From contig NC_019962.1 of NCBI RefSeq assembly GCF_000230735.2, forward strand, positions 3,658,001 through 3,722,000: DNA of 64,000 nucleotides, in the 5' to 3' direction. The position numbers and the translations under genes are program-made. Below are positions 13,516 through 64,000 of the stretch, in pieces (position 1 is the first letter of the stretch; every line of letters starts with the position of its first letter). The notes beneath the pieces were generated by a model. The model did not search any database. It had not been told where the DNA came from and saw only the letters and a program-made list of their open reading frames with translations. Source of the DNA: Natrinema pellirubrum DSM 15624 (GTDB lineage Archaea; Halobacteriota; Halobacteria; Halobacteriales; Natrialbaceae).

Positions 13516-14173
13516 CGTCGCCCACCTCGGTCGGCGACACAGCGGCCCCGTGGGCGGTCGGCGGCCAGACCTCTCGTTCGAACCGTTCGCGGGTGCAGAC
13601 GACGAGGTTAGCCGTCTTCTCCTCTTCGGGGAACTCGAACTGTCGCCGGAACTCGAAGCCACACTGCTGGGCGACCGTCAACACGGCGTCGTTGCGGGCG
13701 TCGGGTTCGCCGACGACCCGGTCGGTCTCGGGGTGGCTGAACTGGAAGGCCGTCATCGCCCGGAGCAACGGGATCGCGACCCCCTCGCCGACGTACTCGG
13801 GCGGACCGAGCAGGAGGTGAATCCCCTGGTCGGCCGGCTCGGCGTCGTAGTACGCCGCGAGGTCGTCATCGGCGACCCAGTAGCGCTCCCAGTAGCTCAT
13901 CGGGACGTGGTCCAGACAGCCGACGTACAGGGTCTGGTGGTCGTCCGCGAGCTTCTCCCGGAGCGTCTCGCGGAACTCGGGCAGCGGCTCGTCGAGGTCC
14001 CAGGAGGGCTTGACGTGATCCGAACCCAGCCACGCGTGCAGGCGACCGAGGTCGCGCTCGAGGTCGACCGGCCGGAAGCCGATGTGTCGGTCGATGGTCC
14101 GGTCGTAGTACTCGAAGTCGTACTCGGCGACGGCGGTGGCGTGGGGGCCACGGTCCGGCGTCCGGGCCGTCAT
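13508..14173 (-). CDS. GNAT acyltransferase for hydroxamate siderophore synthesis, RhbD/IucB-position
   Basis: A 221-residue GNAT protein of the AlcB/IucB/RhbD type. The motif QGIHLLLGPPEYVGEGVAIPLLRA holds the acyl-CoA-binding turn, and the VVGEPDARNDAVLTVAQQCGF segment is the characteristic C-terminal core. It would acetylate the hydroxylated diamine using acetyl-CoA, forming the hydroxamic acid that binds Fe(III). Start and stop overlap the neighbouring genes (4 bases upstream, 8 downstream), showing strict translational coupling within the operon. The exact acyl group cannot be read from sequence. Confidence 0.9.
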   Translation of the reverse strand: MTARTPDRGPHATAVAEYDFEYYDRTIDRHIGFRPVDLERDLGRLHAWLGSDHVKPSWDLDEPLPEFRETLREKLADDHQTLYVGCLDHVPMSYWERYWVADDDLAAYYDAEPADQGIHLLLGPPEYVGEGVAIPLLRAMTAFQFSHPETDRVVGEPDARNDAVLTVAQQCGFEFRRQFEFPEEEKTANLVVCTRERFEREVWPPTAHGAAVSPTEVGDDD

Positions 14174-16059
14174 CGGTTCACCTCCGGCCCCGACGACTGC
14201 CCCGTACTGGTACCGGCCGCGTCCCCGGCGTCGACCAGCGGGTTCCGCACCTCGGCGTAGACCGACTGCTCGTCCAGCGACGGCGCGTCGAGTTCGTCCA
14301 GTCCGCGAAACCGCGTCAGCAGGTTCGCCTTGCGGGGGACGGTCTCGGACTCGAGCAGCGGGTCGAGGATCGACGTTCCGGGCCGGTCGAACTCCCGGAG
14401 CGATTCGAGTTCCTTGCGGAGGATCGCGAGCAACCGTTCCTCCGCGACCAGCCCCGCGGTCCCGAAGGCGTTGATCACGCCCAGCGCGTTGTTCAACACG
14501 ACGTAGTAACGGATCCGCTCGTCGGCGACCGCGTCGGGACAAATCGAGTTCGCCCGCTCGCCGATCCCCGGACAGACCGCCTCGAGCCGGTCGTAGGCGC
14601 TCTCCGGGAAGTAATAGCCCTGATTGTCCCGGTAGCGGAACTCGTCGGGATACCCCGCCTCGTCGAGCGTCAGGACACTGTTTTGCTGGTGGGCCTCGAG
14701 GCCGATCCCCCGCTCGAGGTAGAGCCACAACAGCGGCCGCACCGAGATCGCCAGGTAGCGCCGGAACCACTCCTCGCTGACGGCGGCGGGGTCGCGGCCC
14801 TCGCGCTCGGCGATCGAGGCGATGATCCGGCCCAGCCGCGAGCGGCCGTCACCGATGGCGTCCTGACAGAGCGCGACGACGGGCGTCGCCTGCCGGGCGT
14901 CCTCGCCCCGGAAGGGATTCTCCCGGAGGACGACCTCGAAGCCGGACTCGTCGCCGTCGGTCGCCAGCGCGTCTGGATCGACGGTGAGGTAGGCCGGATC
15001 GCGGATCACGTCGAAGTCGGGGAACCGGTCGCGCAGGTTATCGCCGAGTTCGGTCGCCAGCAGGGTCGAAATCGCGACCCCGCGCTCGAGTTCCGGCCGC
15101 TTGTTCGTTCGCAGGGAGTTGGTGATCTCGACGGCCAGCGACCCCTTGACCATGAACGGCGAGTCGGGGGCATACAGCGTCCGGACCGACGTCGTCGGGT
15201 AAAACTCCCGTCCCAGCGGACCAATGGACTCGAGTTTCCCCGCCGCGACGAGATCCTGCACGTCGGGGCGCTCGAGCAGCCGTTCGGCCTGCCAGGGGTG
15301 GACGGGCAGGAGGACGTCGTCGGCCCCCAGATACCCCTCGAGGACCGACTCGTCGACGGCCGGATCGGCCCGGAGCGCCTCGCGGACCCAGCCGGCGGCC
15401 GACCCCTCGCGAGCGGACTCGCTCTCGACGATATCGGCGTCCGCGCGGACGTAGTGCAGGCGGAACGAGCCCTCGAGTTCCGGGGCGTAGCGTTCGGCGT
15501 CGTTGCCCATCCCCCGACGGCTCTTGGGCGTCGGGTGCTGGAGGTGGCCGAAGACCAGCGACTGCTCGGCCTCGCGGAAGGTGAAGTCCGTCCCGTAGAG
15601 GGCGTCGCCGTCGTCGGCGCGGGCCTCGACGTACCGCTCGACGTTTCGACAGGAGCGGACGACCCGCTCGAGGAGGTCGTCGCGGTTGGGGTCCGCGCCG
15701 CGGGCGAGTTCGAGTTCCTTCGTCGCGAGCGTCGCGAGCGTCGCATAGTCCAACGGCTGGGGCTCGCCGTCGCCGGCCCGGAAAGCGGCCGGCAGATCGA
15801 ACAGGTGACGGCCCGTCGGGGACCGGTACCTGACCGGAACGAAGAGGTCGATCCCCTGGTTCGGAAGCGAACACCGCAGGACGAGCCCGCTCTCGGGCCG
15901 GCGGTCGATCGGCGTCTCGGCCGCGGGAACGAACTCGCCGGCACCGGTCTCGAGGCAGTAGCAGTTCAGGAAGCTATGCACCGTCGCGTCGCGTGCGACT
16001 CGCGTCGCGTCGACGCCGTCGTCGGACGTACTCGTCCGTGTCGTGGGTCGTACTGTCAT
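14170..16059 (-). CDS. NIS siderophore synthetase (IucA/IucC family), RhbC-position
   Basis: A 629-residue synthetase with the classic NIS motif FGHLQHPTPKSRRG, later LPVHPWQ, and the KGSLAVEITNSLRTNKR region, ending in HQQNSVLTL and RDNQGYYFPES. The GHxxHPTPKSR form resembles type A/IucA-like enzymes that activate citrate and attach the first amine. The other synthetase of this operon has a more divergent motif, so the two probably act in sequence. The ATG overlaps the decarboxylase stop by 4 bases and its stop overlaps the acyltransferase start by 4. The first 20 residues are low-complexity. Confidence 0.92.
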   Translation of the reverse strand: MTVRPTTRTSTSDDGVDATRVARDATVHSFLNCYCLETGAGEFVPAAETPIDRRPESGLVLRCSLPNQGIDLFVPVRYRSPTGRHLFDLPAAFRAGDGEPQPLDYATLATLATKELELARGADPNRDDLLERVVRSCRNVERYVEARADDGDALYGTDFTFREAEQSLVFGHLQHPTPKSRRGMGNDAERYAPELEGSFRLHYVRADADIVESESAREGSAAGWVREALRADPAVDESVLEGYLGADDVLLPVHPWQAERLLERPDVQDLVAAGKLESIGPLGREFYPTTSVRTLYAPDSPFMVKGSLAVEITNSLRTNKRPELERGVAISTLLATELGDNLRDRFPDFDVIRDPAYLTVDPDALATDGDESGFEVVLRENPFRGEDARQATPVVALCQDAIGDGRSRLGRIIASIAEREGRDPAAVSEEWFRRYLAISVRPLLWLYLERGIGLEAHQQNSVLTLDEAGYPDEFRYRDNQGYYFPESAYDRLEAVCPGIGERANSICPDAVADERIRYYVVLNNALGVINAFGTAGLVAEERLLAILRKELESLREFDRPGTSILDPLLESETVPRKANLLTRFRGLDELDAPSLDEQSVYAEVRNPLVDAGDAAGTSTGQSSGPEVNR

Positions 16060-17639
16060 GTGGAATCGGTCTCCGCTTCGAGTGCCTCGCCGCGGTCGAC
16101 GACCGCCGCGAGGACAGCTTGGAGGTCGGAAAGCGTCGTTTTCGGGTTCAACAGGGTGAGTTTCAGCGCGGCGGTACCGTCGACTTCGGTCCGCGCGAGG
16201 ATGGCCTCGCCGTCGGCGAACAGTTCGTCGCGGATCCCGCGGTTGAGCCGATCGAGCGCGGGCCGAGACGCGGAACCGGGCCGGTCGTCCGACTCGCCCG
16301 CTCGAGCGCCGCGATCCGAGGGCCGATACCGAAAGACCACCGCGCTGAGTTCGGGGTCACAACACAGCTCCAGCGCCGGCTCGGCCCGGATCTCGTCAGC
16401 GACGGCGTCGGCCAGCTCGCAGACGTACTCGACGCAGTCGGCCACGCCGGCCCGGCCCAGCGCGTTGAACGTCACGAACGGCTTCAGCGCGTCGAACCGA
16501 CGGGTCGTCCGCGGCGATTTCGAGACGAGATTCGGCACCCCCGCCGCGTCGTCGCGCTCGGGGTTGAGATAGGCCGCGTTGCGCTCGAGGAACCGATAGC
16601 GGTCGCCGTCGCGCAACAGGAAAGCCCCACAGCTGATGGGCTGGTAGAACAGCTTGTGGAAGTCGACCGCGATCGAGTCGGCGCGATCGATCCCCGCGAG
16701 TTTGGGTCGCAGCGAGTCGCTGATCGCACAGGCCCCGCCGTAGGCGGCGTCGACGTGCAGCCACAGGTCGTGTTCCGCGGCCCGGTCGGCCAGCGGCGCG
16801 AGCGGATCGATGCTCCCGAAGTCGGTCGTGCCCGCGGTGGCGACGATCGCGAAGGGGCGGCGGCCGTCGGCTGCGAGGGCCTCAAGGGTCTCGTCCAGCG
16901 CCGCGAGGTTCATCCGGCGGTCGTCGTCGGTCGGCACCGTGACGACCGCGTCCTCGCCGAGCCCGAGGTGGTGGGCGGCCTGGTCGGCGGTGAAGTGGGC
17001 GGCGTCCGAACAGAGGAGCCGGAGGTCGGCCGCCTCCGGCGGGAGCCCGGCCGACTGGACGTCGCGGTCGAACCGCGTCTGGCAGTACCAGTCCCGGGCC
17101 AACAAGAGCCCGAGGAGGTTCGATTCCGTGCCGCCGCCGGTGAAGACGCCGTCGGCATCGGCCGGATAGTCGAACAGGTCACAGCAGGCGTCGACGACCC
17201 GTTCCTCCAGGACGGAGGCGGCGGGAGCCTGATCGAACGAGTCCAGCGACTGATTGGTTCCCGAGAGCAACAGCTCGGCGGCCAGCGCCGGGATCGCCGG
17301 CGGACAGTGCAGATGTGCGACGCAGTCGGGATCGTGGACCCGGACCGAGTCGGTGAGGACCTCCTCCGCGACCGTCTCGAGGACGGCCGCAAGCGAATCG
17401 CCCGTCTCGGGAACGACGGTCAGTTCGTCGATCCGCGCACGGAGCGTCTCGTGGTCGGTTCCGGCGTAGGGGCCATCGACCGTCGCGAACGACTCGAGGA
17501 GGCAGTCGCGGGCCCGATCGATCGCCGCCGCGTACGCGGCGTTGCCGTCCGGATCGCCGAGGAAGGCGCTGGCCGTATCCGGCGGCGTCGGCCCGTCGGT
17601 CGCCGCGCGGTGCCGTCCGGTGAGGTCGCCGCCGGTCAT
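16056..17639 (-). CDS. ddc: L-2,4-diaminobutyrate decarboxylase (PLP-dependent), RhbB-position
   Basis: A 527-residue group II PLP decarboxylase. The cofactor lysine is in AVDFHKLFYQP, with the substrate-side GGTESNLLGLLLARD and HVDAAYGGACAIS motifs. Next to a diaminobutyrate aminotransferase gene it should convert L-2,4-diaminobutyrate to 1,3-diaminopropane, the diamine backbone of schizokinen/rhizobactin-type siderophores. Aromatic amino acid or glutamate decarboxylase activity is less likely given the operon. It overlaps the aminotransferase gene and the first synthetase gene by 4 bases each. Confidence 0.9.
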   Translation of the reverse strand: MTGGDLTGRHRAATDGPTPPDTASAFLGDPDGNAAYAAAIDRARDCLLESFATVDGPYAGTDHETLRARIDELTVVPETGDSLAAVLETVAEEVLTDSVRVHDPDCVAHLHCPPAIPALAAELLLSGTNQSLDSFDQAPAASVLEERVVDACCDLFDYPADADGVFTGGGTESNLLGLLLARDWYCQTRFDRDVQSAGLPPEAADLRLLCSDAAHFTADQAAHHLGLGEDAVVTVPTDDDRRMNLAALDETLEALAADGRRPFAIVATAGTTDFGSIDPLAPLADRAAEHDLWLHVDAAYGGACAISDSLRPKLAGIDRADSIAVDFHKLFYQPISCGAFLLRDGDRYRFLERNAAYLNPERDDAAGVPNLVSKSPRTTRRFDALKPFVTFNALGRAGVADCVEYVCELADAVADEIRAEPALELCCDPELSAVVFRYRPSDRGARAGESDDRPGSASRPALDRLNRGIRDELFADGEAILARTEVDGTAALKLTLLNPKTTLSDLQAVLAAVVDRGEALEAETDST

Positions 17640-19009
17640 GCCGGAGCCTCCGCGCGATCCTGTCGGGCCGTGAGGGCCGCGCGAACGCTCTCGTGGACGA
17701 TCTCGGCGACCGTATCGATCCGTGAGGGCGAGATCGTCAGCGGGGGAAGGAACCGGACGACGCTGCCGTCCCGACCGCCGGTCTCGACGACGAGCCCGCG
17801 ATCGAACGCCGCCGACTGGACGGCCGATGCGAGGTCACCGTCGGCGGGATAGTGACCGAGCGAGTCCGGTTCGCCGTCGGGATCGACGAGTTCCATGCCG
17901 AGCATGAGGCCGCGCCCGCGGACATCCCCGACCGCCTCGAACGTCGCCGCGGTCTCCTCGAGGCGGTCCCGTAGCCGATCGCCCATCGCCGCGGCGTGGT
18001 CCTCGAGGTCGTTCTCGAGGACGTACTCGATGGTCGCCGCGCCGGCGGCCATGCCGAGCTGATTGCCGCGGAACGTGCCGGCGTGCGCTCCGGGCTCCCA
18101 GACGTCCAGTGACTCGTCGTAGACGACGACCGACAGCGGGAGTCCGCCGCCGACGGCCTTCGAGAGCGTCATCACGTCCGGGACGACGTCGGCGTATTCG
18201 ATCCCGTATAGTTCGCCGGTTCGCCCGAGCCCGGTCTGGATCTCGTCGACGATCAGCGGCACGTCGCGTTCGCGGGTGATCCGGCGCATCTCGCGGAGCC
18301 AGTCGGCAGGGGCCGGCACCGCGCCGCCCTCCCCCTGTACCGGCTCGAGGATCATACCGGCGGGGTCGACGACCCCGCTATCGGGGTTCGAGAGGGTTCG
18401 CTCGACGTACTCGGCGCTCGTCCGCCAGCAGGCCTCGCCGCCGAGCCCGAACGGACACCGATAGGCGTAGGGATAGGGCAGGTGCTGGACGTTCGGCATC
18501 AATCCCGGCACGTCCTCCTTGGCCGCCGTATCGCCCATCAGTCCGAGCGCGCCGTGGGTCATCCCGTGGTAGCCGCCCTGAAAGGCCAGCATCGACCGGT
18601 TCCCCGTCGCCGTCTTGACGAGTTTCAGCGCGGCTTCGACGGCGTCGGTGCCGGCCGGACTGCAGAACTGCACCTTCGCCGTTTCGGCGAACTCGTCGGG
18701 GAGGCTCTCGAGCAGTCGATCGACGAACCGCTCTTTGACCGGCGTCGTCAGATCGAGCGTGTGGATCGCACGTCCCCGCTCGAGCAGTTCCTCCATCCGT
18801 TCGACGACTGCGGGGTGGTTGTGGCCGAGCGCGAGCGTCCCCGCGCCTGCCAGACAGTCGATGTACTCGTTGCCGTCAACGTCCTCGAGGATCGCCCCGT
18901 CGGCGCGTTCGATCGCCAGCGGCAGCGATCGGGGGTAGGTCCGCGCGTTCGATTCGCGCCGGGCCTGTTGTGCGAGGAGCTGCTCGGCCGACGAACCGCC
19001 GTCGGTCAC
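17636..19009 (-). CDS. dat: diaminobutyrate--2-oxoglutarate aminotransferase, RhbA-position
   Basis: A 457-residue class III PLP aminotransferase. It carries IVDEIQTGLGRTGELYG, the PLP lysine in LSKAVGGGLPLSVVVY, and HAGTFRGNQLGMAAG. It should make L-2,4-diaminobutyrate from aspartate semialdehyde, the first step of 1,3-diaminopropane synthesis. The apparent start is GTG at 19007-19009, which overlaps the TGA of a 22-codon ORF upstream (GTGA). This is first of six tightly packed genes (to 10187) in the same order as bacterial rhbABCDEF, and it lies directly downstream of two iron boxes. Confidence 0.92.
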   Translation of the reverse strand: MTDGGSSAEQLLAQQARRESNARTYPRSLPLAIERADGAILEDVDGNEYIDCLAGAGTLALGHNHPAVVERMEELLERGRAIHTLDLTTPVKERFVDRLLESLPDEFAETAKVQFCSPAGTDAVEAALKLVKTATGNRSMLAFQGGYHGMTHGALGLMGDTAAKEDVPGLMPNVQHLPYPYAYRCPFGLGGEACWRTSAEYVERTLSNPDSGVVDPAGMILEPVQGEGGAVPAPADWLREMRRITRERDVPLIVDEIQTGLGRTGELYGIEYADVVPDVMTLSKAVGGGLPLSVVVYDESLDVWEPGAHAGTFRGNQLGMAAGAATIEYVLENDLEDHAAAMGDRLRDRLEETAATFEAVGDVRGRGLMLGMELVDPDGEPDSLGHYPADGDLASAVQSAAFDRGLVVETGGRDGSVVRFLPPLTISPSRIDTVAEIVHESVRAALTARQDRAEAPA

Positions 19010-19080: not shown

Positions 19081-19131
19081 TTTAGGCCAGCCTAAATATT
19101 GAAAAGCGTGTCGGTTTTAGGCCAACCTAAA
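19081..19131 (-). promoter_or_regulatory. siderophore operon promoter with paired DtxR/IdeR-like iron boxes
   Basis: Two 16-base palindromes, TTTAGGCCAGCCTAAA (19081-19096) and TTTAGGCCAACCTAAA (19116-19131), lie 35 bases apart centre to centre. The common form TTTAGG-N4-CCTAAA matches the DtxR/IdeR/SirR operator type (TTAGGTTAGCCTAA core). The first box overlaps the AATATTTA TATA element of the operon, so a bound metalloregulator would block initiation when iron is plentiful. A plus-strand TATA-like CTTATACA at 19133-19140 follows the second box, but no clear gene lies downstream of it. Confidence 0.85.
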
Positions 19132-54146: not shown

Positions 54147-55070
54147 AGGGGAATGACTGGCCTGCGCGTCGTGACTACCAATAGCTCGTTGCCGAGCATA
54201 AACACTGTGTGTCGCGGCGATCGGGGCATCATCGAGCCGTCGCCCAATTCAATATATCGTTATTCAGTTTAATAGGGGATGGAACGGGCGACTCGAGAGC
54301 GGCAGTCGCGAACGGCGAGACGGCAGCAAAACGGAGAAAACACGGTGTCAGCGGATTACATCGACGGAAGTGTCATACTCATGGTTGACGAGCAGCCGTG
54401 AACAGTCATCATGGGGGTCGCTGATCCCGAGCCGCGAGCGAACGACCCCACTGCGTCGACGGTCGTCAACGTGACCGGTGTTCACCGGTACCCACGATGG
54501 GGTCAATAGCCGACGGGTGACGGGTGGACCACTCGAGGCCGGGGACTCCTCCGAGGGCACGACGTGACCCCGTGGGAGGGCAGGAGGAGGTCAGTTTCGT
54601 TCGGTCGTCGCCGGTAGGCGGCCGGCAACTGGCCGTTCTCACCCGGGGACCGAGCCGACGTGACAGCAGCCAGCCGCCGAACCGCACGACCGCATCGGAG
54701 TCGCTACGTGGCGGACGACCGTCTCGAGCGTCGATCAAATCCGTCGCTTTCGCCGCGTCGCGAGACGTAGCGGCTGCCCGCGCTCGAGGAAGCGGCTACA
54801 ATAGATGGCCGAATCCGATACGCGGGCTGTAGACGTCAGTTGCTCACCGGTTAGGGCCGAATCCTCGTAAACGGTCGTGTGACCCGCGACAGGACGTCTC
54901 GTCGGGGAATCGTGACCCAGACGACCGGAACGCGGCCCGGTCATATATCCCATTTCGGTATACAGAATCGGTGAGAGTCGGTCAGGACGACCGAACAGGG
55001 GACCGACCGGAAATCACCTGTTACCGGATTCTCGAGCCGGGTTCGCCGGATCGTTCACGCAAATAGAGAA
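54147..55070. other. about 0.9 kb gene-poor region upstream of the second iron-box pair
   Basis: The left end holds the PHP promoter; 54243-54275 is AT-rich (CAATATATCGTTATTCAG). A minus-strand frame at 54348-54560 (70 residues, ending CSRLLVNHEYDTSVDVIR) has a protein-like C-terminus and may be a small hypothetical gene or a remnant. Other frames in 54466-54953 are arginine/serine-rich and not convincing. No repeat or RNA gene was recognised. The AT content rises again toward the iron boxes at 55071. Confidence 0.4.
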
Positions 55071-55122
55071 ATTAGGTCGGCCTAAATTCCGATGGACTTA
55101 TCATTGTTTAGGTTGGCCTAAA
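55071..55122 (+). promoter_or_regulatory. second pair of DtxR/IdeR-like iron boxes
   Basis: ATTAGGTCGGCCTAAA (55071-55086) and TTTAGGTTGGCCTAAA (55107-55122) are 36 bases apart centre to centre, nearly the same as the pair before the siderophore operon (35 bases). Between them is a TATA-like CTTATCATTG (55098-55107). The second box covers the region just downstream of this TATA. They should make the downstream genes iron-repressed by the same metalloregulator. Confidence 0.8.
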
Positions 55123-55207
55123 GGATAACGACACCGTCGCCGATGGGCACTCGAGCCACCTCGAACGGCTCGGAGTCGGCCCTTCGGGGACGAGACAGGA
55201 GGCACCC

Positions 55208-56134
55208 ATGGTCGGAACCACGCTCCGAGAGATTCGCCATCACATCGAACAGTTGGCCAGCGACGACGGGAACTACTACGTCGTCTGTGCCCGCTCCGGG
55301 GAGCGCCCCGTCCCGGTTGCCGGACAGCGGTTCCCGACGCGGACCGCCGCGGCCGACGCCGCACAGGCGACCGAACAGTACCGCGCCGCGCTCAGACGCT
55401 ACGACCCACAGCTCCCGTTTTACGATCCGGTCGTCTGTCAGGAGCGGGCCGGCGACGACCCGACGCCGACGACCTCGAGTCGGCCGACCCCGGAGTCGGG
55501 ACAGCCACGGGCGGCAGAGGCGGCCCCGGCGTCGACGACCGGAAGCGCGCCCGCGGACGACGACCCCCTGATCAGCTTCTGCCACGACGTCTCCGGCTCC
55601 GTCTTCGAGGCGCTGTCGGCCCGCGATTACGACGCCGCCGAGCGGGCGATCATGGAGACGTACCTGGCCGCGGCCGAGGCGACGACCGATCCGAACACGC
55701 TCTGTCTGGTGTTGCTCGAGACGATGGCCGCGGAGTTAGAGACCCACCTCGCGGCGACCGAGCGGACCCGCCTGCTGGAGGCAGCGGCGTCGAACCTCCC
55801 GCCGGTGGCGTCGGCTGCGGATCCGGTCGCCGCGAGCCTCGAGTTCCTGGACTCGCTGTCGCTGCTCCGGGAGTACGGACTGAGCCGCAGGTCGACGGCG
55901 GCCGGGGACCGGGACGTGTGGACCGTCTCGCTGCGGGGGTACGCCATCGAGTGTGGCGACCGGCGGTTCCCGACGCTGCCGATCGGGATCGACGTGTTGC
56001 GACGGTCGGAAACGGCCGACGCGCCGGCCGTCACCGACGTACGGGCGCTGGGCGACGGCGACTGGGAGTTCGTCCTCACGAGCGACGCGGGGACGGCGGC
56101 CGGACTCGTCTGTACTCGAGGGGAACAGCCATGA
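55208..56134 (+). CDS. uncharacterised protein, probably iron-regulated (first of two genes)
   Basis: A 308-residue soluble protein; I do not recognise a function. Residues 1-78 form a compact domain (LREIRHHIEQLASDDGNYYV ... DPQLPFYDPVVC). A proline/threonine-rich linker follows (~80-118), then a helical domain (~120-215: FCHDVSGSVFEALSARDYDA ... ETMAAELETHLAATERTRLL). The end is a beta-rich part (~225-305). DUF7551-like naming is possible. The start has a strong Shine-Dalgarno (AGGAGG, 6 bases upstream), and a leader of roughly 75 bases follows the iron boxes. The stop overlaps the next start by 4 bases. Confidence 0.75.
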   Translation: MVGTTLREIRHHIEQLASDDGNYYVVCARSGERPVPVAGQRFPTRTAAADAAQATEQYRAALRRYDPQLPFYDPVVCQERAGDDPTPTTSSRPTPESGQPRAAEAAPASTTGSAPADDDPLISFCHDVSGSVFEALSARDYDAAERAIMETYLAAAEATTDPNTLCLVLLETMAAELETHLAATERTRLLEAAASNLPPVASAADPVAASLEFLDSLSLLREYGLSRRSTAAGDRDVWTVSLRGYAIECGDRRFPTLPIGIDVLRRSETADAPAVTDVRALGDGDWEFVLTSDAGTAAGLVCTRGEQP

Positions 56135-56937
56135 CCGGATCGACCGCGCTCCACGGTGCCCCCGACTGCGTCGACCGGGAATTGGCGGCGGTGGCCACTC
56201 GGGACGAGGCGTTCGGGACGTTCGCCCGGCGCGTCCGTGACCTCCAAGCGACGACCCCGGCGACGGGCCGCGGAGGGGCGACTGCGGCGACGCCGGTCGC
56301 GATGACGACAGCGGGCGAAGCGAGCGGCGCGAGTGCGACGACGGGCGGAACGGGATGTGTCGCCGTTCGCGAGGCCTTCGCCGAGACGGTCGCACCCCAC
56401 AGCACCGCCGACCTCGCGGACGACGAACCGCTCGCCGAGACGATCGCCGCGGAGTTGAACGAGGACGTCGCCGTCGCGCTCACCGCCGAAACGGGCTGGA
56501 CGCCGACGCTCAAACGCGCCGTTCTCGAGGAGATCGCCACCAGACGCCGCGAGGTCGATATCGTTCGGGAGACCCTCGAGACCGAACGGGAGACCGTCGT
56601 CGCGGCGATCGACGAGATCGACGAGATCCTGACGTGGCTGCAGTCGACGGCCGAGGAGTCGCTGCTGCAGTGTGGTTTCGAGACACTGCGGGCGAAACAC
56701 GACCGCCTCGAGCGCTCCCGGGAGCGACTCGACGAACTGACTGCCCGGCGGCAGTCACAGCTCACCGAGACGACGAACCGGTACGGGCCGGGCGGGACCC
56801 GGTATCGGACGCTGGTCGAGTCGGTGTACTCCGCGCAGCCGGCCAGATACCCGCTCCTCTCGACGGCCGCGCGGCTCTACGGGGTCTGTGGCGACTGTCA
56901 GCGGACGGTCCGGACCCACCTGACTCGACGCGTGTAG
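56131..56937 (+). CDS. uncharacterised coiled-coil protein, probably iron-regulated (DUF7260-like)
   Basis: A 268-residue protein; function not recognised. Residues ~1-75 are low-complexity Ala/Thr-rich. Residues ~130-220 form a long helical, probably coiled-coil stretch (RRREVDIVRETLETERETVV ... HDRLERSRERLDELTARRQ). The C-terminus carries a CxxC (YGVCGDCQRTVRTHL) that could bind a metal. I associate this architecture with haloarchaeal DUF7260 proteins, without certainty. It overlaps the previous gene (ATGA) and so belongs to the same iron-box operon. Confidence 0.75.
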   Translation: MTGSTALHGAPDCVDRELAAVATRDEAFGTFARRVRDLQATTPATGRGGATAATPVAMTTAGEASGASATTGGTGCVAVREAFAETVAPHSTADLADDEPLAETIAAELNEDVAVALTAETGWTPTLKRAVLEEIATRRREVDIVRETLETERETVVAAIDEIDEILTWLQSTAEESLLQCGFETLRAKHDRLERSRERLDELTARRQSQLTETTNRYGPGGTRYRTLVESVYSAQPARYPLLSTAARLYGVCGDCQRTVRTHLTRRV

Positions 56938-56969: not shown

Positions 56970-57359
56970 CTACGGCGGCGACTCGGAGAGTCGGTCCGGA
57001 ACGAGATCGGCCAGCGAAACGTCTTCGAGAACGGTCCCGACCGTGAGCGGATCGTCGGCCGTCGAGACCCTCTCGTGGATCCGCCGCATGCACTCGAGCA
57101 GGCCGTCGACGGCCGCCCGTCGGGTCGAGACGCGCCCGATCGAGCGAGAGACCGACCGATCAGTGAGGAAAAAGCGATACTGAAGCTCCCAGTGTCGACA
57201 GAGCCCGAGGGTCGGATGGGACCGCGCGGGGACACAGTCCGCGATCAGGTCGATCCGCGGGCGAGCGTGTCGGTAGACGAATCGACCCTCACAGCGTTCT
57301 GCGAGGCCCCAGCGCGGCGGTAGGGCCTCCTGGGGAATGGGATCCTGGTCGACAGCCAT
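56970..57359 (-). CDS. hypothetical protein
   Basis: A 129-residue protein with no recognised family. It is moderately basic and contains two cysteines in the core (LIADCVPARSHPTLGLCRHW) and YRFFLTDRSVSRSIGR, then a helical C-terminus. It is convergent with the iron-box operon (33 bases from its stop). The start at 57359 (MAVDQDPIPQEALPPRWG) was chosen because the upstream extension is not protein-like. Real coding is likely from its amino-acid composition, but not certain. Confidence 0.55.
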   Translation of the reverse strand: MAVDQDPIPQEALPPRWGLAERCEGRFVYRHARPRIDLIADCVPARSHPTLGLCRHWELQYRFFLTDRSVSRSIGRVSTRRAAVDGLLECMRRIHERVSTADDPLTVGTVLEDVSLADLVPDRLSESPP

Positions 57360-57516
57360 GTACGCTGATATCGCCGGGTGCGGGGGTGTTCGTTCCGCTT
57401 GCGAGCGCGGGCATCTCTGTAGGCATCCCCTACCGCGGGTCGACGGTCGGTCACGAGGAGGCCGGGCAAACGGGTCGATCGTCCGACTTTTGTCTCCGCT
57501 CGTCCTCGAGTCGGGT

Positions 57517-57888: not shown

Positions 57889-57960
57889 CGCCGTCGGCGA
57901 CGGTGGCAGACGAACATGGCGGACGGAAGGTTTAGGGGGGCTGATACCCAAGAGCGTTTC

Positions 57961-58326
57961 ATGAGCACCGAGACCCAGAACGACGGGGACGACCTCGAGG
58001 AGCGCGTGACGAACTTCCTTCGCCGGAACTTCCCGCAGATCCAGATGCACGGCGGCAGCGCAGCGATTCAGGACATCGATCGCGAGAGCGGCGAAGTCAG
58101 CATCGCTCTCGGTGGTGCCTGCAGCGGTTGTGGGATCTCGCCGATGACGATCCAGGCGATCAAGAGCCGGATGGTCAAGGAGATTCCCGAAATCGAGAAA
58201 GTCAACGCGTCCACCGGCATGGACGGCGGCGAAGAGGAGATGGGCGGCATGAGTCCCTCCTTCCCCGGCGAAACCGTCGATGACGACGACGGCGAGGTCG
58301 ACGAAGGCCCCGAAGCACCGTTCTAA
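57961..58326 (+). CDS. NifU C-terminal domain (Nfu-type) Fe-S protein
   Basis: A 121-residue protein. Residues ~12-85 form the Nfu domain with the cluster-binding CxxC in LGGACSGCGISPMTIQAI. A methionine/acidic-rich tail follows (EEEMGGMSPSFPGETVDDDD). Nfu proteins carry and deliver [4Fe-4S] clusters to client proteins, downstream of the SufS/SufU system encoded at 6.5-9.9 kb. The start at 57961 was chosen on family grounds, with an ATG at 57916 as a longer alternative. It lies 72 bases after the DUF5783 gene. Confidence 0.92.
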   Translation: MSTETQNDGDDLEERVTNFLRRNFPQIQMHGGSAAIQDIDRESGEVSIALGGACSGCGISPMTIQAIKSRMVKEIPEIEKVNASTGMDGGEEEMGGMSPSFPGETVDDDDGEVDEGPEAPF

Positions 58327-61351: not shown

Positions 61352-64000
61352 CTACATGAAATCCTCGATGCCCGATTGTTTGTTCTTGTCGTTCTCGAAG
61401 ATGCTCTCGAGCGAGCGCTCTAAGACCTCTAACCGCTGTTTAGTGTAGGGCCGACAGTCGTACTCGTCGGCGACCTGAATCGCGGTCTGCATGTACTTGT
61501 TGACCGAGCCCTTGTGGACGGTGAGGTTGACCCGGCCGCCACACTCGCGGCAGTCGCCGGTCAGTGGCATCCGCCGGAACTTCTCGCCGCAGTCGAGACA
61601 CCGCGTTTCCTGCCGGGAGAACGCCCGCAGGTTCCCGATCAGGTCCGGCAGGAAGTGGTACTCGATGACCCGCTCGGCGACGTCGGTCTCGTCGACCGCC
61701 TCGAGCTTGCGCGATAGCTCGAGCTGGGCGTCCATCTTGTCCATCATCGAACCCAGCGTCTTGTACGCCGAGAGATCGGGCCCCATCGCGATGTCGGTGG
61801 TGTCGTGGGTGTGGTCGAAGCCGGTGTACTCGAGGTCGGTGCCGAGGTTTACCTCGGCGATCTCGATGTCGACGTCTTCGGGGTCGGCCTGCTCGCGGGT
61901 CGCGAGGAAGAACTCGCGGGGGTACTGCGAGACGACGTCCATGTTGTGGGCCTCGTCGTCGATCTCGGAGGGATCGATTCGGGAGGACATGACCAGCGGG
62001 GCGTCCATCTTACCCCCCCGCTGGTCGGGGAGGAAAGACTTACTGAAGTTGAGAAGTCCGTCGAGAAGCAGCATGACGCAATCTTCGTCGCCGTCACATT
62101 GCTTTTGAGACATGTTATTCGCAACGAGGGAATGCGTCTCGGCAACGGTAAGACAATAGACCGAATCGACGGTCGACTCGATATATTCGACCGACGAAAT
62201 CGGTTCGACGAGATACGCATCATCGCCACCGTCAAAGACGCGCCGTCCAGTTGGGACGATATCTTCGACATGTGACTGCAAGAGATCGTCCTTTCGAGAC
62301 AGGTGGAATCCCACTATTTCGGCGAACTGACTCGCGTCCTCAGAGGAAATATCGAGAACGTAGGTCGGAGCGGACATCGACGGATCGTCGAGTTCGTAGA
62401 AATCGGGGAACTTCTCGCAGAGCGGAACCGGGTCGGTGATCGTCGCTCGGCCGCAGATCCCCAGCCGACTCAGTAAGGCGAGCAGGTCCTCCTTGAGTTC
62501 GGCACTGACCGTCGTCGCAGAGACCAACAACGCGTTCGCATCGACGCCGCCGTCACCGCTGAAATAGCCTCGGAGATAGGCGGCGACGATCTCGTCCGAC
62601 GCGTCGAAGATCGGCTGTGGAACGCGTTTCGTCTCCGCGAAGATTCCTGCTTTGAGTACCGAATCGAAGAAAACGCGCGTGAGTCGGCCCGAAACAGTGA
62701 CTTTTGCCTCGTTTTCGCGGTACGGTTCGGTACCGAATTCCTCCCGGAACACATCGATATAGAAGTCGCGGGCCTCGGCTTCGGTTCCACAAATCGTCGT
62801 TTGATGTATCGCTCCTTTCGGCGTTTCCTGTTCCCGTGCAAATCCTTCAGCAGCGTAATATCCCAACAGCGTACTGACACGCTCGTTGAGTTCTACGAAC
62901 CGGTCGATCTCGGTTCGATCGCGTCGCATACCGAGCTGGACGTCAGCCGGAACGAACTCGAGAAGTTCCTGCCGCGAATCGAACAGTTCGAGGAGCAGAT
63001 CCGCGGGGAAACTCTCCCGGTACAGGTAGTTGCTGAACGTCTTCTTGCTCAGATCGAAGTATTCGGCTGTACTCGTGAGCGGATAGAACTGTCCATCCCA
63101 CCCGTCGCCGAGCCGATCCTCGAAGAGTTCGTACAGTCGATCCTTCTCCAGTCCCTTGATCATCAGCCGAGACGGATCGACGCTATCGACCTCAAGGAAC
63201 TCGTCAAGCAGATCGAACACGCGTGGATCGTCGTCAGTATCGACGACATCGAGATGTTCAGGGACGACAGCGTGATCTTCAGTCGTGAGTTGGGCAGCCC
63301 GTTTCGACTGGAGTTGTCCGTCTTCGTAGACGTGGACCTCGTGGTCCGGCGTCAGTGTGATTTCGCGACCGCTCCGTGTCTCGAGCCGAACGAGGTGATC
63401 GGGTGCTGGGTGTTTCGAGACGGCCTCGACCGGTTTACGCGTAAGGCTTCCGCTATCGTCAATCGATGGAACGGCAACGTCACCGTCGAGTTCCTGAACA
63501 AGCGTTCCGAAGTCGTCTGATTCGGGATCGTCGAGTCGTTCCTCGACGAGTGTCTCGATTGGGCCGTGATGCCACTCGTCCGCTTCGTCTCGATACCATA
63601 TTTCCGTGTCGGGGTGGAAACAGTTCCGCCGCTTCGCGGCGTGAAAGTACGGATGGGCGTATCCGACGGCCGCGCTCGTGAATCCGATCACTCGGCCGAC
63701 AGTTGCCGCGGACGTGTGGGGTGCCATCCCGAAGACGAGTTCGCCCACCAGGTCCTGGCGGTCCTCGAACTCGTAGAAGGACTCGAGCCCGTAGTACTGC
63801 TCCAAGAGGTCGTCGATGAAGTCGGCCGTCTGGAGCATGTGTTCGGCCGCGCCGTCCGAGAGGACGATGTCTTGGACCTTGAGTTCGACCAGTTGGTCCT
63901 CGTGGGTCAGGGGTTCGCCGTGGATGTCCTCCTCGTAGCCCAGTGCCTGAAGCTGACCGACGTCGACGTCGAGTTCGCTGGCCCGGACCGAGGTCACGGG
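61352..64000 (-). CDS. polC: DNA polymerase D large subunit DP2, C-terminal part with intein
   Basis: The frame is open to the window edge at 64000, so the N-terminal part is missing. About 125 residues of N-extein end in YFHAAKRRN; the C-extein (248 residues) starts CDGDEDCVMLLLDGLLNFSK, containing the catalytic aspartates of the DPBB core. Later come a zinc ribbon (CLDCGEKFRRMPLTGDCREC) and KQRLEVLERSLESIFENDKN at the end. DP2 is the catalytic subunit of PolD, the main archaeal replicative polymerase, partnered by the DP1 exonuclease. Splicing out of a 508-residue intein is needed for activity. Confidence 0.95.
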   Translation of the reverse strand, partial: PVTSVRASELDVDVGQLQALGYEEDIHGEPLTHEDQLVELKVQDIVLSDGAAEHMLQTADFIDDLLEQYYGLESFYEFEDRQDLVGELVFGMAPHTSAATVGRVIGFTSAAVGYAHPYFHAAKRRNCFHPDTEIWYRDEADEWHHGPIETLVEERLDDPESDDFGTLVQELDGDVAVPSIDDSGSLTRKPVEAVSKHPAPDHLVRLETRSGREITLTPDHEVHVYEDGQLQSKRAAQLTTEDHAVVPEHLDVVDTDDDPRVFDLLDEFLEVDSVDPSRLMIKGLEKDRLYELFEDRLGDGWDGQFYPLTSTAEYFDLSKKTFSNYLYRESFPADLLLELFDSRQELLEFVPADVQLGMRRDRTEIDRFVELNERVSTLLGYYAAEGFAREQETPKGAIHQTTICGTEAEARDFYIDVFREEFGTEPYRENEAKVTVSGRLTRVFFDSVLKAGIFAETKRVPQPIFDASDEIVAAYLRGYFSGDGGVDANALLVSATTVSAELKEDLLALLSRLGICGRATITDPVPLCEKFPDFYELDDPSMSAPTYVLDISSEDASQFAEIVGFHLSRKDDLLQSHVEDIVPTGRRVFDGGDDAYLVEPISSVEYIESTVDSVYCLTVAETHSLVANNMSQKQCDGDEDCVMLLLDGLLNFSKSFLPDQRGGKMDAPLVMSSRIDPSEIDDEAHNMDVVSQYPREFFLATREQADPEDVDIEIAEVNLGTDLEYTGFDHTHDTTDIAMGPDLSAYKTLGSMMDKMDAQLELSRKLEAVDETDVAERVIEYHFLPDLIGNLRAFSRQETRCLDCGEKFRRMPLTGDCRECGGRVNLTVHKGSVNKYMQTAIQVADEYDCRPYTKQRLEVLERSLESIFENDKNKQSGIEDFM
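62099..63622 (-). other. 508-residue LAGLIDADG intein in DP2
   Basis: The intein starts at Cys (codon 63620-63622, CFHPDTEIWYRDE) and ends at Gln (codon 62099-62101, ANNMSQKQ); the +1 residue is Cys of CDGDEDC. Splicing block B is REITLTPDHEVHVYEDG. Endonuclease blocks are LLGYYAAEGFARE and LRGYFSGDGGVDAN. Block F is VYCLTVAETHSLVANN. The insertion is at the polymerase active site. The C-terminal residue is Gln instead of the usual Asn, as reported for Pyrococcus PolII inteins at this gene. The endonuclease motifs look intact. Confidence 0.92.

Follow-up and report, generated by a model that had tools for sequence, protein, structure and literature searches.

Paired iron boxes before a haloarchaeal two-gene operon: a probable link to siderophore-iron import and a tentative sensor/adaptor role

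In the window, i.e. the whole stretch of 64,000 nucleotides that was analysed, we found a two-gene operon behind a pair of iron boxes, which is probably induced by iron starvation and encodes a cytosolic protein pair that probably works with siderophore-iron import and may act as a sensor/adaptor. The shared iron regulation of this operon with the siderophore genes is strongly supported at the level of sequence, because the box cores are invariant, boxes precede the orthologues across families and the orthologues are found among iron-uptake genes. An involvement of the protein pair in iron acquisition or its control is very likely, and the specific mechanism, a sensor/adaptor, is proposed with somewhat less than even confidence. 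The original prediction of a role in iron acquisition, storage or sparing gains support from box conservation and gene neighbourhood, and can be narrowed to siderophore or ferric-iron acquisition or its control.

Promoter boxes in the window, the genome and the class

The upstream box ATTAGGTCGGCCTAAA (55071-55086, + strand) contains the core TTAGGTCGGCCTAA (55072-55085), which is invariant in 14/14 Natrinema-type loci, and the downstream box TTTAGGTTGGCCTAAA (55107-55122, + strand) contains the core TTAGGTTGGCCTAA (55108-55121). Both boxes are spaced by 36 bp and bracket a TATA-like element, ACTTATCA (55096-55103, + strand), the putative promoter; a repressor bound at the downstream box would obstruct the start site. 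A reference pair at 19081-19131 (boxes at 19081-19096 and 19116-19131, 35 bp apart) precedes the siderophore operon (aminotransferase/decarboxylase/IucA-IucC, 14170-19009, minus strand), and the previously claimed resemblance of the two pairs in form and spacing is thus borne out. In 13 of 13 congeneric loci we observed a box pair before the orthologue with a spacing of exactly 36 bp and with the TATA-like element bracketed. Over 14 loci, the window included, the cores are 100% identical, compared to 55% for the central N4 and 38% for the outside flanks; the cores in this alignment were found by exact pattern, and the pattern is present at every locus. The TTAT between the boxes, immediately 5' of the second box, is equally invariant in the genus (alignment columns +26 to +29 show no variation over the 14 loci). 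Between a PHP-domain gene and the promoter, a stretch of about 0.9 kb (54150-55070) shows no obvious gene.

Are such boxes equally common at random positions of the genome? A genome-wide scan, proposed together with the original prediction, found the pattern TTAGGN4CCTAA at 21 exact places in the 4.35 Mb genome versus 1 for the reversed control pattern, and the excess recurred in 26/26 searched genomes of the genus (11-28 versus 0-4), a comparison which the operon reading withstood. Exact pairs with a gap of 18-25 bp occur only three times genome-wide, before the operon, before the siderophore operon and before the gene of a CARDB-domain protein. The box-associated genes of the window's genome are iron-themed: they comprise a FecCD permease with ATPase and two substrate-binding proteins, another substrate-binding protein with an FAD oxidoreductase, a bacterial-type solute-binding protein, a DtxR-family repressor, Dps-type ferritins and a DUF5059-halocyanin. 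We infer that the boxes correspond to the 'ferR regulon signal' of PMC11349517 (citing Leyn & Rodionov 2015), which they match in kind.

Three further box locations were noted in the same genome. The CARDB-domain protein behind the third exact pair (G000:C1:1181113-1181160; L017:2614-2661) has 403 aa, is unstudied and is probably surface-exposed. A 10 kb region (G000:C1:727101-737463, L016) contains four exact boxes together with a gluconate-dehydrogenase-subunit-3-like gene, a GMC-type oxidoreductase, a glycosyltransferase, a bacterial-type solute-binding protein and a reversibly-glycosylated-polypeptide-like protein, and clusters of this kind seem to occur in other genomes of the genus. One more exact box (G000:C1:3786323-3786336; L025:2824) lies about 190 bp before the gene of a DUF7090/DUF7504 KaiC-like protein of unknown function.

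Across the class, we compared 78 loci of relatives, which were picked from the listed matches and not randomly, so that the fractions are not population estimates. A box lay within 350 bp of the gene in 40 loci and either at the gene or at the head of its operon in 54, compared to 0 for the control pattern and 31/674 for other genes; these counts treat related genomes as independent, and the genes were called by a simple codon-score script which loses some genes in lower-GC species. In six of the 78 loci, a box and an iron-type neighbour were both absent. In many other families, the box is found between a TATA-like element, about 27 nt ahead, and the start, often at 15 nt from the ATG, and a repressor bound in this arrangement would mask the start site. 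Boxes also precede DUF7552 genes that stand alone and are paired with DUF7260 (L287-L291), and the DUF7552-DUF7260 pairing is therefore iron-linked even without DUF7551.

The two proteins and their gene neighbourhood

Gene 1 (55208-56134, + strand) encodes a 308-aa protein, predicted to be cytosolic, in which a DUF7552 domain (residues 5-79, 55220-55444, + strand; Pfam PF24422, E=2.6e-36, 124.1 bits against a gathering cut-off of 27) is joined by a linker to a DUF7551 domain (residues 121-304, 55568-56119, + strand; PF24420, E=1.2e-61, 208.5 bits against 52.6). The AlphaFold model (mean pLDDT 86.5) is confident apart from residues 97-115, and its N-terminal domain, low-confidence linker and C-terminal domain agree with the three-part architecture claimed before. 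DUF7552 forms a helix-strand-helix-strand unit; the modelled C-terminal half consists of five helices, two strands, a helix and two strands. Three cysteines are conserved, the invariant C27 in DUF7552 as well as C125 and C166.

Gene 2 (56131-56937, + strand) encodes a 268-aa protein that is covered over nearly its full length by DUF7260 (PF23921, E=6.7e-68, 229.1 bits against 27) and consists mostly of long helices. The ATG of gene 1 lies at 55208 and that of gene 2 at 56131, within an ATGA overlap of both genes. Since a convergent gene (56970-57362) follows, the operon comprises two genes; its closest named relatives belong to Natrinema, with 96% identity to N. thermotolerans. The C-terminal signature C-x2-CQRTVRTHLTR (residues 253-266, 56887-56928, + strand) is found, among the branches compared, only in the iron-linked DUF7260 branch. 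Gene 2 had been described as a coiled-coil protein with a C-terminal CxxC: the long helices and the C253xxC256 at the end agree with this description, but the first cysteine is not invariant, and in the wider iron-linked group it is sometimes lost while CQRxVRxHLxRR is largely kept. DUF7260 occurs in 201/242 genomes, often in multiple copies; as several unlinked copies that were examined have neither boxes nor CQRxVRxHLxRR, the idea that DUF7260 at large is an iron family was rejected. A common ancestry of DUF7551 and DUF7260 was rejected as well (hhalign probability 10%).

Neither protein matched anything other than Pfam domains of unknown function, in agreement with the earlier statement that neither is of known function, and NCBIfam gave no named function for either. 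Profile searches among PDB sequences found no relative of gene 1 and, for gene 2, only a chance-level helical design; the fold search with the gene 2 model returned no match. In Pfam and NCBIfam, no FhuF or FAD/siderophore-interacting domain was detected in either protein at E<=1. Permease, ATPase and solute-binding domains, present in the neighbours of relatives, are absent from both proteins, as are membrane-helix-like stretches.

Two further genes of the window were noted beyond the operon: a NifU-like gene (57916-58323), NifU being also located near DUF7551/DUF7260 loci in several other families, and a large minus-strand ORF (61352-63997) that, by sequence reading, resembles a piece of an intein-containing DNA polymerase II large subunit.

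How widespread is the pair? PF24420 matches occur in 142/242 sampled genomes, and the full-length DUF7551 in about 136, because some matches are weak (E between 1e-4 and 1e-14 in G049, G061, G080, G165, G173 and G232) and in three of these genomes (G061, G080, G173), which also have the kinase family described below, the match is probably the kinase N-terminus. Haloferax volcanii has matches to DUF7551, DUF7552 and DUF7260. IucA/IucC was found in 47/142 genomes with DUF7551 matches versus 18/100 without (odds ratio 2.3), a co-occurrence that is only weak since its P=0.012 is not phylogeny-corrected.

In Natrinema, including the window, the operon lies apart from uptake genes. Outside the genus, the gene adjoins Peripla_BP_2 substrate-binding proteins, a FecCD permease (E=3e-96), an ABC ATPase, an FAD oxidoreductase, DtxR (Fe_dep_repress), Dps/ferritin and NifU, and is sometimes placed directly between the substrate-binding protein and DtxR. 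FecCD was present within 9/65 non-congeneric 12 kb loci, compared to about 1% expected from about 3 copies per 3.5 Mb. Annotated records, which include plasmids, display the same surroundings: in Halobellus limi and Halobacterium hubeiense an iron ABC permease, an FAD/NAD oxidoreductase and substrate-binding proteins stand beside the genes, and in Halostagnicola larsenii and Haloferax larsenii a metal-dependent transcriptional regulator comes after the gene 2 relative, and DpsA or NifU is encoded close by. The neighbouring FAD protein was considered as a thioredoxin reductase, an assignment that was rejected as 12 inspected of 31 contained no CxxC. At four loci (L133, L159, L160 and L163), a DUF7551 paralogue without an iron box is directly followed by an FAD oxidoreductase, beside Trk-like genes.

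A module shared with histidine kinases, and the possible functions of the pair

A DUF7551 profile scan of the neighbours revealed, near the operon of one genome, a 412-aa PAS-HATPase kinase (L167:1712-2947, minus strand). The kinase family defined by its N-terminus is present in 22/194 genomes (including L311-L330) and was not found in the window's own genome. We compared the helical half of DUF7551 with the kinase N-terminus and observed a relationship (hhalign probability 97, E=7e-11; single kinases to 4e-16): the N-terminal 70-80 residues of the kinases are homologous to this half, whereas PAS, HisKA and ATPase (HATPase) domains are absent from gene 1, which has DUF7552 and the beta-rich C-terminal half instead. 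An exact iron box lies 14-15 nt before the kinase ATG in 17/19 resolvable genes and a box with a single mismatch in one more; the kinase genes had been found by similarity, and the boxes played no part in finding them. The exception is L320, where the kinase gene has DUF7551 and DUF7260 genes of the same strand a short distance upstream of it.

Based on these observations, we propose the following sequence of events. Under iron sufficiency, both boxes around the TATA element would be bound by an iron-loaded DtxR-family repressor, which would shut off transcription. Under iron shortage, the two proteins would be made alongside the siderophore and FecCD-type import genes. The cytosolic DUF7552-DUF7551 protein and its helical DUF7260 partner, products of overlapping genes, would probably form one complex, and this pair may act as a sensor/adaptor that links the uptake machinery to the state of iron or siderophore inside the cell. 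We further speculate, with considerable doubt, that DUF7552-DUF7551 and DUF7260 could constitute a second level of iron signalling, so far undescribed, below the DtxR-type repressors, namely a cytosolic iron-status sensor/adaptor whose input module is common to the PAS histidine kinase family.

Could the pair handle the metal itself? A cytosolic factor for iron release or delivery after FecCD-type import, acting with the neighbouring FAD oxidoreductase, is conceivable though rather unlikely; its cysteines (C27, C125 and C166 of gene 1 and the C-terminal Cys of gene 2) would take iron from the ferric siderophore and pass it on to, e.g., NifU-type Fe-S assembly. The substrate-binding protein, FAD oxidoreductase, FecCD and NifU genes that adjoin the gene in many loci would suit such a factor, as would the invariant cysteines and the pairing of DUF7551 with the FAD protein, kept in the box-less paralogues; indeed, with regard to the three cysteines of gene 1 and the FAD oxidoreductase, iron handling is as good a fit as sensing. 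However, no fold or profile match to a known siderophore reductase, FhuF or iron chaperone was found, the FAD proteins are without CxxC where inspected, the first Cys of gene 2 varies and the link to the histidine kinases would be left unexplained. The sensor/adaptor reading is preferred over release or delivery on account of the module that DUF7551, in its helical half, shares with the N-terminus of the iron-box PAS histidine kinases. It is improbable that the proteins serve iron sparing or general stress and are merely co-regulated by iron, with no direct part in uptake or control. The position of the operon apart from transport genes in the window and the genus would agree with this, as would the glycosyltransferase and GMC-type oxidoreductase cluster among the other boxed genes, but in other genera the gene resides inside or beside uptake operons.

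The remaining two readings concern the fold and the metal. The order of helices followed by strand-strand-helix-strand-strand in the AlphaFold model of DUF7551 recalls H-NOX/V4R-type sensor folds, and the best PDB fold match is the Nostoc H-NOX (Foldseek E=0.013, probability 0.96, TM 0.43 by target), so that a remote relative of these folds binding heme or another tetrapyrrole was considered. We regard this as very unlikely: no fold match fell below E=0.001, the profile comparison with haloarchaeal H-NOX-like and V4R families gave a probability of <1%, and an H-NOX-like proximal His, the heme ligand, is neither seen by sequence reading in the helix before the strands nor conserved in the alignment. 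Homology was rejected, as significance was reached by neither fold nor profile. DtxR-family members can be Mn-responsive, and the boxes might belong to another metal or redox regulator (e.g. a Mn- or Zn-responsive DtxR paralogue), with the operon answering to that metal. We regard this, too, as very unlikely, given that the boxes are carried by genes for siderophore synthesis, FecCD, Dps and iron-type repressors, that iron limitation induces the Haloferax iuc siderophore operon (PMC7407949, according to PMC11349517) and that all Haloferax fhu operons carry the ferR signal (PMC11349517). The sensor/adaptor reading offers, with a module common to an iron-box histidine kinase, a concrete first hypothesis for function.

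Relation to known iron systems

Iron control is a well-studied metal circuit of haloarchaea, and yet a protein pair linked to it by footprint and neighbourhood has no function. The conserved switch and the link to iron uptake in most haloarchaea point to an undescribed part of the response to iron shortage. The claim of an undescribed system holds for the function, as no paper on DUF7551, DUF7552 or DUF7260 was found by DUF name or Pfam accession in the library searched; it does not hold for the families, which already exist in Pfam, nor for the box signal, which is known in kind.

The closest known system is the haloarchaeal ferR/DtxR-type iron regulon, with the named regulators Idr1/Idr2, SirR and TroR. 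A palindromic box of the same kind precedes its genes for siderophores, fhu-type ABC importers, Dps and DtxR and likewise, in most families, the operon described here, where we found a specific palindromic box at the promoter position that is kept before the orthologues of other species; the difference is that the proteins of the window's operon have no assigned function. The Haloferax volcanii/mediterranei iuc operon and fhuCGD importers (PMC7407949, PMC11349517, PMC11218638) represent the kind of genes that carry such boxes and neighbour the DUF7551 gene, but genes 1 and 2 encode neither biosynthetic enzymes nor transporter subunits. The regulon is already known, while its DUF7552-DUF7551 and DUF7260 components appear to be undescribed.
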